From Oceanobacillus senegalensis (GTDB lineage Bacteria > Bacillota > Bacilli > Bacillales > Amphibacillaceae), in contig NZ_LT839648.1 of assembly GCF_900176885.1 (NCBI RefSeq), forward strand, positions 957,049 to 1,021,048: a DNA stretch of 64,000 nt, given 5' to 3'. The position numbers were made by a program, and so were the translations under genes. Under the pieces are notes generated by a model that was given only the letters and a program-made list of their open reading frames with translations, ran no database searches and was not told where the DNA came from. Within the stretch, counting starts at the first letter, position 1. Each line of letters opens with the position of its first letter. Positions 30,614 to 35,460 of this stretch are shown one piece after another.

Positions 30614-30639
30614 TGAAACCTTTTTTATAGTTATTCGTA
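30614..30639 (+). promoter_or_regulatory. Sigma-W-type ECF promoter of the PspA operon
   Basis: TGAAAC at 30614-30619, exactly 16 bases, then CGTA at 30636-30639. This is the consensus architecture of B. subtilis sigma-W promoters (TGAAAC-N16-CGTA). It lies about 40 bases before the first gene of the operon. B. subtilis pspA is itself sigma-W-dependent. Confidence 0.85.
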
Positions 30640-30678
30640 TTACTGGTATAGGAAAAGTAATAAGTGTGAGGTGAAGTC

Positions 30679-31197
30679 GTGGGGTTATTTTCAAGGTTAT
30701 TTTCCAATAAAAAAAAGGATAAACCTGAACCAAAAGATCGTACAGTTCTAACTATAGAAATTGGCGATATTATTACTTATGATTTAAAGGATTATGAAGT
30801 GGTAGGTAAAATCACCTATCGTGATGGCGGTTATGAATGGCTTAGTTATCAGCTGCTTGAAGATGGTAACCATGAAACGATTTGGCTATCGGCAGAAATG
30901 GATGATGAATTGGAGTTAGGTATTTATAAACGTATTCAGCTTCCGGTTTCTAAACCCTACCCAAAAGAAATAACATATGATGGTAAAACCTTTTATAAAG
31001 AAGAAGAAGGGAATGCCAGAGTATTAGGTCAGGGCAGAAGTGAGAATTTACAGGGCATGGAAACACATTATGTAGATTATACGGATAGCGAGGAAGAGAG
31101 TTTTCTGAGCCTAGAATCTTGGGGGACCGAAGTAGAAGCAAGTGTTGGTTATCCAATTAAGCCATATGAATTAAAAATTATTGCAGGATCATATTAA
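30679..31197 (+). CDS. DUF4178 protein, first gene of PspA operon
   Basis: This soluble 172-residue protein has a basic amphipathic start (MGLFSRLFSNKKKDKPEPKD) and a beta-rich core typical of DUF4178: GDIITYDLKDYEVVGKITYR, then GYEWLSYQLLEDG and WLSAEMDDELELG. The start is GTG at 30679 with GTGAGGTGA upstream. It lies 12 bases before pspA. DUF4178 recurs next to PspA in several Firmicutes. The function is unknown; a lipid- or PspA-binding accessory role is inference. Confidence 0.82.
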   Translation: MGLFSRLFSNKKKDKPEPKDRTVLTIEIGDIITYDLKDYEVVGKITYRDGGYEWLSYQLLEDGNHETIWLSAEMDDELELGIYKRIQLPVSKPYPKEITYDGKTFYKEEEGNARVLGQGRSENLQGMETHYVDYTDSEEESFLSLESWGTEVEASVGYPIKPYELKIIAGSY

Positions 31198-31209
31198 GGA
31201 GGAAATAGA

Positions 31210-31881
31210 ATGTTTAAATTATTCAAACGTATGAAAACCGTAGTGAGTTCAGAATTAAATTCTGTATTGGATAAAGCAGAAGATCCAGTGAAAATGCTTG
31301 ATCAGTATATGCGTGATATGTCAGAGGACATTCGTGAAGTGGAAGCTGCTGTAGCTAAACAAATTGCTAATGAAAAAATGTTAAAACGTAAAGCAAATGA
31401 TGCCAATGCGATGGTGGAAAAACGGCAAGAACAAGCAGAAAAAGCGATTGAAGCAGGGAATGAAGATCTAGCTCGTCGTGCACTTCAAGATAAGAAAGAT
31501 CATGCTGCAACCGCTGAAGCCTTAAACGAGTCTTGGGAGCGAGCTAAAAAGGATGCAGATACGCTTCGTGATAAATTAGATGAAATGAAAAAAGAATATC
31601 AGGAAATGAAATTGAAAAAGGATTCCTTAAAAGCACGTGCAGAATCTGCTAAAACAAGAACAAAAATGAATCGTACCATGTCTAACGTTGGAAGTGATGA
31701 ATCCAAGCAAGGCTTCGAACGTATGGAAGAAAAAGTTTTACAATATGAAGCAGAGGCAGAAACAAGTGAAGATATATCCCAGGCAAGCCGTTCCATTGAT
31801 GATGAATTTGAAGAGCTTGATAAAAAAGATGATATTGATGATGAATTAGCAGCATTAAAGGAAAAATTAGGAAAAGAATAA
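31210..31881 (+). CDS. pspA: Phage shock protein A (PspA/IM30)
   Basis: This 223-residue, almost entirely helical protein has the N-terminal amphipathic segment MFKLFKRMKTVVSSELNSVL and the PspA hallmark DPVKMLDQYMRDMSEDI. Extended coiled coil follows (about 25-190). It belongs to the bacterial ESCRT-III-like family that coats and stabilises stressed membranes. It has a strong AAGGAGG site. Upstream is a sigma-W-type promoter and downstream a hairpin without a T-tract, suggesting that pspA is the most abundant segment of the transcript. Confidence 0.95.
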   Translation: MFKLFKRMKTVVSSELNSVLDKAEDPVKMLDQYMRDMSEDIREVEAAVAKQIANEKMLKRKANDANAMVEKRQEQAEKAIEAGNEDLARRALQDKKDHAATAEALNESWERAKKDADTLRDKLDEMKKEYQEMKLKKDSLKARAESAKTRTKMNRTMSNVGSDESKQGFERMEEKVLQYEAEAETSEDISQASRSIDDEFEELDKKDDIDDELAALKEKLGKE

Positions 31882-31911
31882 TCTTATATTCGGATTTCTA
31901 ATAGTAAAAAC

Positions 31912-31950
31912 GAACAAAATGGAGCAGTTGGTGCTGCTCCATTTATGTTC
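31912..31950 (+). promoter_or_regulatory. Intra-operon hairpin after pspA
   Basis: GAAC-AAAT-GGAGCAG, a TTGGTG loop, CTGCTCC-ATTT, then GTTC: 11 uninterrupted pairs plus four outer pairs. No T-run follows. It may be a partial terminator or an mRNA-stabilising 3' end for the DUF4178-pspA segment. Confidence 0.65.
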
Positions 31951-31984
31951 ATATAATACATATTTACAGAGAGGGGGATTGTTT

Positions 31985-32635
31985 TTGAATAAAAAATGGG
32001 TATTCCTTTTCGGACTTTTTATGGTGGCCCTCTTTTTAACGGCTTGTTCATCTACGGATAGAGGTATCCAACAAGAATCATCTATTACTGTCGGTGATAT
32101 TCCTAATGAACCTTCAAAAAAAGATATTATCCAATCGATTCAGAATAGCCCTAGTACACAAATCGATGCCATTATTGCAGCGAACTTCCCATTAGTGGAC
32201 GTCGTTACAGAAGATGATACTACAGCCGAAATTTATGCAACAACAAAGTTTAATCTTTCGGAGTTAAGTTCTGTTTTAACAGAAAATATAAAACCAGATG
32301 AAGAAAGTGAAGTGATTGACAACCGGCAAATATTTATATATCCCGATCATTTTGTGACATTAAAGCCAAGTGAAGCGGATAATGATGTACTCTTAGTGGA
32401 AGTAGCAAGCGAAACATTTGTTGAACGGAATTATTCTCCTAATTTTTTAAGTACGTATTTTACCATTCGAATGTTAGATAGTTTGTTTGGAAATAATTGG
32501 AGTACAAGAAGGTCTAATGCATGTGTTACTGGGGATTGCTATGGAGGATATAGTGGAGGTTCAAGTGGAGGATTTGGAACGACTAGGCGCGGGAATTCAT
32601 CCTATCGTGGTGGTGGACCTAGCTTTGGAAAATAA
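31985..32635 (+). CDS. DUF4247 lipoprotein
   Basis: This 216-residue protein has a lipoprotein signal: MNKKWVFLFGLFMVALF, then the lipobox LTAC (Cys near residue 21). The extracytoplasmic part ends in a Gly/Ser-rich tail (GGYSGGSSGGFGTTRRG). The start is TTG 31985 with GAGAGGGGG upstream; the longer frame from 31919 would bury the signal. Lipid anchoring on the outer membrane face complements cytoplasmic PspA. The function is unknown; it recurs with DUF350 and spermidine-synthase-like genes. Confidence 0.83.
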   Translation: MNKKWVFLFGLFMVALFLTACSSTDRGIQQESSITVGDIPNEPSKKDIIQSIQNSPSTQIDAIIAANFPLVDVVTEDDTTAEIYATTKFNLSELSSVLTENIKPDEESEVIDNRQIFIYPDHFVTLKPSEADNDVLLVEVASETFVERNYSPNFLSTYFTIRMLDSLFGNNWSTRRSNACVTGDCYGGYSGGSSGGFGTTRRGNSSYRGGGPSFGK

Positions 32636-32650
32636 AAGGAGGGGACGTAA

Positions 32651-33046
32651 ATGAATGCATTTCTTGCTACCGTTGTATATTTTATTATTTCAACGGCTGT
32701 TGTATTGGTAGGATTGTATATTTTTGAAATAATGACAAGACAGTATAAAGACTATGAAGAAGTAAAAAATGGAAATATTGCTGTTGCACTATCCGTTGCT
32801 GGTAAAATTGTAGGTATTTGTATCATACTTGCTTTCGCCATTTATCATAGTACATATATTTATGATACGGTGATTTGGGGAATAGTTGGTGTTGTTTTAC
32901 AAATGCTTGCGTACTATTTAATGGAGTTCTTTACTCGCAGTTTCTCTATGGAAGAACAATTGAAAAACAATAATGTGGCAGTAGGTATTTTATCTTTAAG
33001 TGTATCGATTGGCCTTGGCTTAGTTGTCGGTGCATCGATTACGTAA
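32651..33046 (+). CDS. DUF350 membrane protein (YjfL type)
   Basis: This 131-residue protein has four predicted membrane helices arranged as two similar halves: FLATVVYFIISTAVVLVGLYI with NGNIAVALSVAGKIVG, and VVLQMLAYYLMEFF with NNNVAVGILSLSVSIG. The two-fold repeat is visible in the NxNxAVALS / NNNVAVGIL motifs. E. coli YjfL, in a PspA-paralog operon, belongs to the same family. An AAGGAGG site lies 15 bases after the lipoprotein stop. Its function, perhaps a channel or small transporter, is unknown. Confidence 0.85.
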   Translation: MNAFLATVVYFIISTAVVLVGLYIFEIMTRQYKDYEEVKNGNIAVALSVAGKIVGICIILAFAIYHSTYIYDTVIWGIVGVVLQMLAYYLMEFFTRSFSMEEQLKNNNVAVGILSLSVSIGLGLVVGASIT

Positions 33047-33072
33047 AAAAATAATATGTAATATTAGAGAAT

Positions 33073-33098
33073 GGCCAGGCAAATGCTTGGCCTTATTT
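33073..33098 (+). promoter_or_regulatory. Intra-operon hairpin before the spermidine-synthase-like gene
   Basis: GGCCAGGC - AAAT - GCTTGGCC (eight pairs, one G-T), followed by TTATTT. It could act as a leaky terminator that lowers expression of the last gene. Confidence 0.6.
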
Positions 33099-33113
33099 GT
33101 TGGAGTGAGATAT

Positions 33114-34670
33114 ATGAATAATGAAGCAATACGTAAAAGTAATATTATCTATTGGTCCAGTGGTATTGTCTCTATTTGTGGAATTATCTTTGAGGTTTTA
33201 TTCGGAGCGCTAGGATCTTACATATTAGGGGATGGTGTGAAGCAATATACGCTAACCATTTCGCTATTTTTAACGGGAATGGGAATTGGTGCTAGTTTAA
33301 GTGAACGGGTGATGAAAAATTTAATTCTTGCATTTGTATGGATAGAATTATCAGTTGGTTTAATTGGTGGATTCTCTAGTTTCATGATGTTTGGAATCAC
33401 TGCCTTTGCTCCTGCTGGTACGGATGCCTTTTATCTCTATTTTATAACCGTATTAATCGGTGCTTTAACTGGGTTTGAACTTCCGATATTAATTCGTAAG
33501 GCTAATGAAATTGGGGTCGATTTAAATCGAAGTACAGCACGTGTCCTATTTTCTGATTATGCTGGAGGATTAATTGGTGGGCTATTATTTGCATTTTTAT
33601 TACGACCACAGCTAGGTTTAGTGAAATCTGCATTCATTGTTGGGACAATTAATGTCATTATTGCCTTAATTGTATTATGGCTTTTCCGGAAAGAAATAAA
33701 AAGATTTCTTATTCATGCCACCGCTGGACTTATCATCCTTATTGCTTTAGTTATTGGATTGTTTTTTGGGGAGGAAGCGGCTTTTCACTTTGAGCAGAAA
33801 ATATATCAGGATCCAATCATGCATATGGAAGAAACAGCCTATCAAAAAATTATACTAACCCAAGATCCGAGTACCAAGGATGTTAGGCTTTATTTAGATG
33901 GATCCTTGCAATTCAGTTCAGCTGATGAATACCGTTATCATGAAGTATTGGTTCACCCAGCAATGGAATATGTCGAGCATTCAAAAAATGTTTTGATTCT
34001 TGGTGGTGGAGATGGAATTGCTGTAAAGGAAGTACTTAAACATGATGATGTAGAGGAGGTTACATTAGTCGACTTAGATCCTGCAGTTGTAGAACTAGCT
34101 ACTTCTAACCGACTTTTATTAAAGGTCAATGATGGAGCGTTAACGAATGAAAAAGTAAACGTTATTAATACGGATGCCTTTCAGTTCCTTGAAAATACAG
34201 ATACTTTCTATGATGTGATTATTGTTGATCTACCTGACCCAAATAATGAAAGTCTAAACAAATTGTATACATGGGAATTTTACTCTCTTGTTCGAAATCG
34301 CTTATTGCCAAATGGGGTAGCGATGATACAGGCTACTAGCCCTGTGTTTGCGACAGAAGTATATTGGACGATATCTGAAACGATTGCTTCTACCGGTTTA
34401 TATATAGAAAATCTCCATGTTGATGTACCGAGCTTTGGGAACTGGGGGTTTGTGATGGCAAGCAGAAATCCAATTGACCTTCAAAATCTTGAAATTCAAG
34501 TTCCTACCAGATTCTTAACTAATGAGCTATTGCTTAGTTTAACTCATTTTGGAAAGGATGAGGACGGGGAGATAATAGATCGAAATGGTGAGAGAATTGA
34601 GCTAAAACCAAATACATTAATTGATCCACATTTGATAGGTATTTATGAGAACTCTTGGAAAAATTACTAA
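33114..34670 (+). CDS. Membrane-anchored spermidine/spermine synthase-like protein
   Basis: This 518-residue protein has about seven membrane helices in residues 1-240, then a soluble aminopropyltransferase/methyltransferase-fold domain. Key motifs are YHEVLVHPAM, VLILGGGDGIAVKEVLKH, the acidic cofactor residue in VTLVDLDPAVVE, and IIVDLPDPNN in the place of the catalytic DSTDP of soluble SpeE. Polyamine synthases transfer aminopropyl from decarboxylated SAM; whether this one does, or methylates or modifies another amine, cannot be told. ATG 33114 follows TGGAGTGAG. No SAM decarboxylase gene is linked. It is the last gene of the PspA operon. Confidence 0.85.
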   Translation: MNNEAIRKSNIIYWSSGIVSICGIIFEVLFGALGSYILGDGVKQYTLTISLFLTGMGIGASLSERVMKNLILAFVWIELSVGLIGGFSSFMMFGITAFAPAGTDAFYLYFITVLIGALTGFELPILIRKANEIGVDLNRSTARVLFSDYAGGLIGGLLFAFLLRPQLGLVKSAFIVGTINVIIALIVLWLFRKEIKRFLIHATAGLIILIALVIGLFFGEEAAFHFEQKIYQDPIMHMEETAYQKIILTQDPSTKDVRLYLDGSLQFSSADEYRYHEVLVHPAMEYVEHSKNVLILGGGDGIAVKEVLKHDDVEEVTLVDLDPAVVELATSNRLLLKVNDGALTNEKVNVINTDAFQFLENTDTFYDVIIVDLPDPNNESLNKLYTWEFYSLVRNRLLPNGVAMIQATSPVFATEVYWTISETIASTGLYIENLHVDVPSFGNWGFVMASRNPIDLQNLEIQVPTRFLTNELLLSLTHFGKDEDGEIIDRNGERIELKPNTLIDPHLIGIYENSWKNY

Positions 34671-34738: not shown

Positions 34739-35419
34739 ATGAAGGTATCTTATCATGGACATTCTGTAGTAAAAGTGGAAACAGAAAATCATAGTATTCT
34801 ATTTGATCCATTTATAAATGGAAATGGGGGTTGTGATTTAGATGCGAGTACGGTAAAAGCAGATGTCATTCTGCTTACCCATGCACACAATGATCATGTT
34901 GGGGACACGGTAGAGATTGCTAAGCGAAATAATTCGTTAGTTGTCGCACCAAATGAGCTGGCAAATTACTTAGGAGAAAAAGGGCTAAATGCTCATCCGA
35001 TGCATATCGGAGGTTCTCATGAATTTGATTTCGGAAAAGTAAAATTCACGCAAGCATTCCACGGTTCTTCCTATACGGAGGAAGATGGTACAGTCATTTA
35101 CGGTGGTATGCCTGGAGGAATTCTATTAACTATTGAAGGTAAAACAATCTATCATTTAGGGGATACGGCATTATTTACGGATCTAAAAATGTATGGAGAA
35201 ATGAATGACATTGATGTAGCGTTCGTTCCAATTGGGGACAACTTTACAATGGGACCAGAAGATGCACTGGTAGCAGCTGATTGGATTGATGCAAAAATTG
35301 TTGTACCTGTACATTATAATACCTTCCCTGTAATTGAGCAGAATCCTGAGGATTTTTCTAGTAAAGTGAGGACTGGTGAAGGAAGAGTGTTGAAGGTTGG
35401 AGAAGGGATTGAATTATAA
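34739..35419 (+). CDS. ytkL: UPF0173 metal-dependent hydrolase YtkL
   Basis: This 226-residue metallo-beta-lactamase-fold protein has the metal motif [10 protein letters not shown] and later ligand blocks [19 protein letters not shown] and [14 protein letters not shown]. The family is widespread and its substrate is unknown. ATG 34739 behind AAAAGGAG gives the family start [13 protein letters not shown] seven codons upstream also has a good GGAGG site, so a short alternative form is possible. Confidence 0.93.
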
Positions 35420-35423
35420 AAGG

Positions 35424-35460
35424 AGAGGCGTGAACTCAAAATGTTCACGCCTTCTGATAT
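35424..35460 (+). terminator. Terminator after ytkL
   Basis: AGGCGTGAAC - TCAAAAT - GTTCACGCCT, perfect ten-base stem, then TCTGATATTTTGTTTTT. Confidence 0.8.

Follow-up and report, generated by a model that had tools for sequence, protein, structure and literature searches.

What does a membrane-anchored aminopropyltransferase do in an operon built around pspA? The question is raised by a locus of Oceanobacillus senegalensis, which was analysed in a window of 64 000 nucleotides (assembly GCF_900176885.1, contig NZ_LT839648.1, positions 957 049 to 1 021 048 of the forward strand; 'the window' is this whole stretch, and coordinates without a locus prefix are positions in it). Five genes between 30679 and 34670 on the + strand encode, in order, a DUF4178 protein, PspA, a DUF4247 lipoprotein, a DUF350 membrane protein and a fusion of a seven-helix membrane domain (7TM) with an aminopropyltransferase (APT) domain. 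The explanation that fits the data best, and to which moderate confidence is given, is an envelope-stress module with a membrane aminopropyltransferase that would take decarboxylated S-adenosylmethionine (SAM) as donor and an acceptor other than home-made putrescine. It draws on gene content and order, the promoter motif, the catalytic residues of the fusion, the co-occurrence of the SAM decarboxylase SpeD in a sample of the family and the missing matches to SpeA, SpeB and AguA of the putrescine pathway. The features of the locus are as follows.

30614..30639, + strand: promoter of sigma-W type (extracytoplasmic function, ECF), TGAAAC-N16-CGTA, read from the sequence, 39 nt upstream of the GTG of the DUF4178 gene
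30679..31197, + strand: DUF4178 protein, 172 aa, GTG start (PF13785, 125.9 bits)
31210..31881, + strand: PspA/IM30 family protein, 223 aa (PF04012, PspA_IM30, 169.9 bits)
31917..31944, + strand: stem-loop in the pspA/DUF4247 junction (stem-loop scan)
31985..32635, + strand: DUF4247 lipoprotein, 216 aa, lipobox LTAC, C-terminus RGGGPSFGK (PF14042, 35.0 bits, cut-off 27)
32651..33046, + strand: DUF350 membrane protein, 131 aa, four transmembrane (TM) helices (PF03994, 124.6 bits)
33073..33092, + strand: stem-loop in the DUF350/fusion junction (stem-loop scan)
33114..34670, + strand: fusion protein, 518 aa, 7TM membrane domain (residues 1-230) and APT domain (231-518) (NF002956, PF01564, structure model and Foldseek)

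The families, order and direction of the five genes were as given in the preliminary description of this DNA, and Pfam matches were obtained for all five. That description also had the genes separated by short gaps throughout, which did not hold, as stem-loops occupy the pspA/DUF4247 and DUF350/fusion junctions. PspA scored 133.9 bits against TIGR02977, under the equivalog cut-off of 242.95. The fusion gene is likely to start at ATG 33114, after the stem-loop at 33073-33092; a longer frame with a TTG start overlaps the DUF350 gene.

The gene set was compared in 75 of the 90 fusion-bearing genomes found in a sample of 147 genomes of the family (the window and 74 same-family relatives; the 15 left out were 14 lower-ranked genomes and one on a short contig). 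The order DUF4178-pspA-DUF4247-DUF350-fusion was intact in 73 of the 75 loci, the two exceptions being one locus at a contig end and G137, which has the last three genes only. The same order was intact in 79 of 80 named loci, whose genomes overlap with the 75-locus set and whose single exception lies at a contig end. One locus (L145, genome G145) carries the fusion in two frames and was counted among the 75 loci, not among the 74 aligned fusions referred to below. For the 75 loci DUF4247 was counted with a profile made from relatives of the window; Pfam's own DUF4247 model matched in 60/147 family genomes, every one of which has the fusion. Few genomes beyond the family carry the fusion: in a sample of 249 from the phylum, 8 passed the NF002956 cut-off, one of them that of the window. 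The seven distant Bacillota with the fusion carry PspA and DUF4178 in six cases, a detected DUF350 in six and DUF4247 in all seven (four by the profile, three by Pfam). Co-occurrence with pspA therefore extends beyond the species, as had been proposed. An ion-channel gene follows the fusion in four of the seven distant loci (L274:9364-10545, L278:9549-10598, L280:4972-5994 and L279:9573-10406); three of these genes have Ion_trans_2 and TrkA_N (RCK) domains and one has Ion_trans.

The fusion matched the NCBIfam model NF002956 'polyamine aminopropyltransferase' (PRK03612) with 598.3 bits over residues 7-517 (cut-off 472) and PF01564 (Spermine_synth) with 131.9 bits. An AlphaFold model shows seven long helices followed by the APT domain (pTM 0.66), and the closest named relatives are from Oceanobacillus (83% in O. 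halophilus). Both Asp residues of the DxxDP motif (D372 and D375, numbering of the 518-aa protein) are invariant in 74/74 family fusions and in the 7/7 distant ones, as are Q244, Y275, H276, D300, E306, D322, D354, Q406 and W444. The preliminary description had taken a DLPDPNN motif to replace the catalytic block of SpeE, which is wrong: both catalytic Asp are retained, and Glu stands at the second place, position 375, in the family's canonical SpeE instead (all 30 proteins examined out of 74). The fusion reads DLPDPNxE where these 30 have a loop of the DSTEPVGP type. Tested for the features of canonical SpeE, the fusion keeps the catalytic Asp, the Tyr and the donor-binding residues, while N377, E379, K383, W418 and H435 are invariant in fusions and different in canonical SpeE.

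The top relatives in a Foldseek search, at 30-33% identity, were the Thermus triamine/agmatine APT, Pyrobaculum SpeE and the Medicago thermospermine synthase; Synechococcus spermidine synthase is also 30% identical, and the E. coli and T. maritima spermidine synthases are 23-25% identical. The closest enzymes in a sequence search share DLxDP followed by LYT (the DLxDP...KLYT motif, as in thermospermine synthase), and the motif of the fusion is therefore normal for that branch. A passage of PMC11107197 describes spermine synthases as carrying Asp in motif 2, followed two positions later by Gly. The fusions have the Asp (74/74) and do not fit this pattern because Ile, Leu, Val or Met stands two places on; the motif rules in the passages of that paper leave the acceptor otherwise unsettled. 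These data suggest that the fusion is a working aminopropyltransferase.

PspA systems are regulatory, and a second use of the APT domain has to be weighed here, that of a non-catalytic sensor of decarboxylated SAM or polyamines whose signal would reach PspA or a channel by way of the 7TM domain. The ion-channel genes after the fusion in 4/7 distant loci, three of them with an RCK domain, are in keeping with it, and polyamine monitoring is suggested in a passage of Ravi 2024 (PMC11237479). However, the two catalytic Asp and the Tyr occur in 81/81 fusions and would be needless in a pure sensor, and we regard this explanation as quite unlikely.

For a working enzyme the donor is probably decarboxylated SAM, judging from the distribution of SpeD. 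The preliminary description had noted that no SAM decarboxylase gene is linked; this holds for the 64-kb window, where no SpeD was found, and not for the genome, where speD lies ∼31 kb downstream of the fusion in the arrangement gapB-speD-nrdR. In 12/75 loci speD is moreover the divergent neighbour of the DUF4178 gene, 148-390 nt away. The spacing of 31 kb was rejected as a sign of functional linkage by itself, as speD sits at gapB-nrdR, a place presumably shared with B. subtilis. The SpeD of this genome scored 136 bits against TIGR03330 (B. subtilis type, cut-off 75.65), and its Ser/His/Cys spacing of 63/68/83, read by eye, is as given for SAM decarboxylase (AdoMetDC), these three residues being shared by neofunctionalised forms.

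In the family sample of 147 genomes the fusion was found in 90 (89 over the cut-off and G145 below it) and SpeD in 105, and SpeD was present in 90/90 fusion genomes. Canonical SpeE was assigned by frame length and score among the matches listed, a scope that holds for every count of it here, and genomes with the fusion and no such SpeE are termed fusion-only. Among the 73 genomes without canonical SpeE, 28 have both fusion and SpeD, none has the fusion without SpeD, three have SpeD alone and 42 have neither (Fisher 3.7e-17, a value that overstates independence because the genomes are related). Farther away SpeD was found in 6/7 distant fusion genomes, and none was found in the distant Bacillota genome G185; in the C. 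glutamicum control the fusion and DUF4247 are present and PF02675 (SpeD) is without a match.

The link to SpeD could in principle reflect shared ancestry, with SpeD kept for other reasons or now acting as an arginine or ornithine decarboxylase, and with the fusion using SAM or another donor. Neofunctionalisation of SpeD is known (a passage of PMC10407285), two fusion-bearing genomes, G185 and that of C. glutamicum, lack SpeD, and in the present genome speD lies 31 kb off at gapB-speD-nrdR. Yet the SpeD of this genome fits TIGR03330 and has the AdoMetDC spacing (which neofunctionalised forms share), speD adjoins the operon in 12/75 loci and a fusion without SpeD occurs in 0/90 genomes of the family sample, so that we hold this account to be very unlikely.

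The cluster of G185, the sole SpeD-less genome of the distant fusion set, contains a DUF2617 gene between pspA and DUF4247 (L275:6919-7458). The M. tuberculosis cluster also holds a DUF2617 gene, according to a passage of PMC11237479. A stand-in for SpeD is a possible lead for this protein, for which no solved relative was found. A further SpeD match lies inside a 506-aa open frame at G120:C1:939255-939572, in a genome counted with neither type of SpeE, and is perhaps a SpeD fusion.

With decarboxylated SAM as the probable donor, the genes for putrescine synthesis bear on the acceptor. SpeA and SpeB were assigned by hand from score gaps, with coverage of the profile or adjacency to speD deciding a few SpeA, and the proteins taken as canonical SpeB have TIGR01230 scores of at least 286 bits. 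The 28 fusion-only genomes, which belong to 8 genera and include that of the window, have no SpeA, no canonical SpeB and a single AguA (G089); a weaker agmatinase over the cut-off was found in three of them (G000, G089 and G130). The 62 genomes with both the fusion and canonical SpeE have SpeA in 58 cases, SpeB in 49 and any of SpeA, SpeB or AguA in 61, and the 12 with canonical SpeE alone have SpeA in 10 and SpeB in 12. Profile searches of the window's genome gave no match to SpeA, canonical SpeB or AguA. There was likewise no sign of an ornithine decarboxylase of the PF02784 fold, because one such protein, presumably LysA, was found per genome in the 40 tested (the 28 fusion-only and 12 others). 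The remaining PF01276 protein of the window's genome scores as YaaO-type, and deletion of yaaO leaves the polyamines of B. subtilis unchanged (a passage of PMC8503589).

With the putrescine genes gone and SpeD retained, SpeD is kept in these genomes without home-made putrescine, and the fusion is the only evident user of SpeD. Putrescine from the usual arginine route is thus probably not the acceptor. The preliminary description had suggested another substrate on account of the altered motif and the missing SpeD; an acceptor other than ordinary putrescine is indeed probable, neither of the two reasons stands, and SpeD in 90/90 fusion genomes points to the usual donor. The missing putrescine pathway is the better argument. 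Because the fusion and the maker of its donor are kept where the usual putrescine and spermidine genes are absent, the fusion of this marine Bacillus-like host probably decorates something other than putrescine at the membrane.

The fusion might instead be the spermidine (or thermospermine) synthase of the lineage, supplied with putrescine or spermidine by import or by an unrecognised enzyme; its membrane domain would then tie synthesis to uptake or export. The NF002956 equivalog match over its cut-off, the DLxDP...KLYT motif as in thermospermine synthase, the complete catalytic residues, the agmatinase-like genes of the window's genome and, in 10/10 sampled genomes of genus g15, a homologue of agmatine deiminase that scores below the TIGR03380 cut-off and lies 1.5-8.7 kb downstream of the fusion would all agree with it. 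It is opposed by the absence of SpeA and canonical SpeB from 28/28 fusion-only genomes and of AguA from 27/28, by a second PF02784 protein in 0/28, by the fusion-specific invariant residues N377, E379, K383, W418 and H435, which the DxxDP loop is taken to place near the acceptor, and by the reported inability of such fusions to replace a deleted speE (Li et al. 2019). We consider such a synthase a real but lesser possibility.

The stress side of the favoured explanation, an envelope-stress module, derives mainly from the promoter. The region of the preliminary description begins at 30614; a perfect sigma-W-type promoter, not mentioned in that description, starts at this very base. TGAAAC-N16/17-CGTA is taken by us to be the sigma-W consensus of Bacillus. 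With a spacing of N16-17 the whole genome gave 26 matches, several of them inside genes, against 8 for a reversed control pattern. Across the loci TGAAAC-N15..17-CGTA was found upstream of DUF4178 in 69/73, and the background of 87 occurrences (those 69 included) in 1.54 million positions on both strands of all loci amounts to 0.022 per 390 nt. Other such sites in the genome precede genes for an ECF sigma factor, NfeD1b, Spo0M, LiaI/LiaF-like, DUF2207 and DUF6612 proteins, and the ECF sigma gene with its own sigma-W-type site (L024) is thus present in the genome. In B. subtilis pspA belongs to the sigma-W regulon (a passage of PMC3498285). The earlier view of the PspA operon as one stress-type unit is upheld by the promoter in 69/73 loci, and a unit predicted to be under a sigma-W-type promoter is supported.

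Expression along the operon may be stepped, with pspA made most, because of the stem-loops in the pspA/DUF4247 and DUF350/fusion junctions. A stem-loop of at least 7 pairs was found at the first of these in 46/73 loci and at the second in 41/74, the latter count missing the window's own as the long open reading frame start was used, against 0/73, 3/74 and 3/51 in the other junctions; the counts are without a shuffled control and the contrast is partly one of length, two of the compared gaps being much shorter. One more gene follows at a distance of 68 nt:

34739..35419, + strand: metal-dependent hydrolase (NF001911, 312 bits), of a family presumably named UPF0173

The hydrolase may be a readthrough member of the operon, outside the core count, because the terminator scan gave no terminator-like site between it and the fusion (one lies after it, at 35425-35453) and a homologue is present in 51/75 loci.

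The sides of the membrane on which the products lie can be predicted in part. The DUF4178 protein is probably cytosolic, and no significant solved relative of it was found (best E 0.59, at chance level). DUF350 consists of two similar halves, the unit TM-[TRxxxxEExxKxxN]-TM occurring twice as read by eye, with N42 and N108 conserved, and its structure model has a pLDDT of 83.2. A role for DUF350 as an SMR-like exporter was considered and found unsupported, the best E in a fold search with the model being 1.2 and the DUF350 profile being without a solved relative. A lipobox pattern is present in the DUF4247 protein of 74/74 loci, and the protein ends in RGGGxxxGK in 74/74 (RGGGPxxGK in 69), with the terminal Lys fixed.

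The loops of the 7TM domain hold on average 11.7 Lys and Arg on the face that bears the N-terminus and 4.7 on the opposite one, and the bias has the same direction in 81/81 fusions. With a Lys/Arg-rich N-terminal side and an odd number of helices, the positive-inside rule predicts the APT domain outside the cytosol; the fold model of the fusion carries no information on sidedness. The APT domain is also free of cysteine in 81/81 fusions, but as proof of an outside location this is weak, since canonical SpeE is cysteine-free in 24/30. An outward-facing APT domain, with the 7TM domain passing decarboxylated SAM across and an amine lipid of the outer leaflet or the C-terminal Lys of DUF4247 as target, is a doubtful reading of the charge bias and the conserved tail. 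So is, to the same degree, the extracellular aminopropylation that it would imply, which by analogy would be somewhat like the lysine modification of eIF5A. A reaction outside on a target outside is conceivable, and no outside supply of decarboxylated SAM is known.

For the envelope-stress module, whose activity, acceptor, cellular regulation and benefit we infer, the following course is proposed. A sigma-W-type ECF factor would turn the operon on, PspA and the DUF4178 protein would work on the cytosolic surface of the membrane, with DUF350 embedded in it and the DUF4247 lipoprotein on the outside. SpeD, encoded elsewhere in the genome, would make decarboxylated SAM for the membrane-anchored fusion, which would move the aminopropyl group onto a membrane amine other than arginine-route putrescine. 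The added positive charge would tighten the anionic damaged membrane while PspA coats the damage; stabilisation by the product is conjectural. If the product were a lipid or a surface lipoprotein, this would be a new bacterial way of adding positive charge to a stressed envelope.

A number of observations weigh against this explanation. The promoter motif is absent from 4/73 loci (L095, L098, L128 and L160), the first two of which are of the window's own genus, and the evidence for a stress role consists of sequence motifs only. A sigma-W site before the divergent speD was found in 0/12 adjacent cases, so that SpeD is probably not co-induced. The genomes behind the association with SpeD are related to one another; canonical SpeE also occurs in 62/90 fusion genomes, and SpeD therefore has another user there. 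The donor rule does not hold everywhere, for in G185 and C. glutamicum the fusion occurs and SpeD does not. Two proteins of the agmatinase family in the window's genome exceed the TIGR01230 cut-off, with 225.7 and 192.5 bits, and imported putrescine is the main loophole. The agmatine deiminase homologue near the fusion in the ten sampled genomes of genus g15, all of which also carry canonical SpeE, favours a polyamine link and argues against a role entirely separate from polyamines. Downstream of the operon at L160:8260-10172 there are likewise genes named by inspection as agmatine deiminase and N-carbamoylputrescine amidase-like.

The original observation is sound, with corrections on the catalytic motif and SpeD. 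In 28 genomes of 8 genera SpeD and the fusion alone are kept, the fusion in a sigma-W-type stress operon, and as the usual putrescine genes are missing from these genomes, a product of decarboxylated SAM in them should come from the fusion, which makes them clean natural backgrounds. The central question, what the fusion aminopropylates, is thus answerable by mass spectrometry in these species.

In searches of open-access literature no report of the acceptor of membrane spermidine-synthase fusions was found, and the promoter, the DUF4247-with-PspA form, the pattern of SpeD and putrescine loss and the charge bias were not found in print there. By title and abstract, no treatment of the gene set as such was found in that literature besides PMC11237479. 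The proteins AAN56744, AAN56746 and AAN56747, which we take to be those of Shewanella, exemplify a published group with which the operon can be compared. In passages of Ravi 2024 (PMC11237479) the association of PspA, DUF350, DUF4178 and the 7TM-synthase is already described, as the preliminary description had noted from comparative genomics. PspA, DUF4178, DUF350, a lipoprotein and the 7TM-synthase stand together in that group as they do here in 73/75 loci, but the group has a CesT/Tir-PspA dyad and a Ctha_1186 lipoprotein, and the lipoprotein here is DUF4247, which the same source lists in a passage for a variant without PspA. The sigma-W-type promoter and the loss of the putrescine pathway do not appear in its main-text passages. 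No CesT/Tir-like gene was found in the operon, whose five genes fit other Pfam families with none intervening; no search with a CesT/Tir model was aimed at the rest of the genome.

Li, Kurihara, Kim, Liang and Michael (2019, Biochem J 476:2579) reportedly linked SpeD to a membrane-SpdSyn fusion and DUF350 and proposed a polyamine-independent role, and such fusions reportedly do not complement a speE deletion. SpeD in the same genome as the membrane-synthase fusion would be common to both systems, here in this genome and in 90/90, whereas PspA, DUF4247 and ECF control, and a loss of the putrescine pathway counted in one family, go beyond what is reported there. The M. tuberculosis cluster, in a gene order that we assume to be Rv2597-Rv2601, offers another comparison. 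This actinobacterial DUF4247-DUF350-SpeE cluster (CCP45394/CCP45395, a passage of PMC11237479) shares DUF4247, DUF350 and a membrane SpeE with the operon, but DUF4247/DUF2617 replace PspA in it, and the C. glutamicum control is without a SpeD match. In B. subtilis pspA-ydjGHI, pspA is likewise under sigma-W and the partner genes are quite different (a passage of PMC3498285).

A second SpeE with a decarboxylase of its own is also found in P. aeruginosa. The genes concerned, PA4773-PA4774, presumably lie beside pmrAB and are linked to envelope defence. They are speD2-speE2 and encode a thermospermine synthase next to its own SpeD (a passage of PMC11107197), but SpeE2 has 349 aa and a membrane domain, PspA and DUF350 go unmentioned in the passages of that paper.

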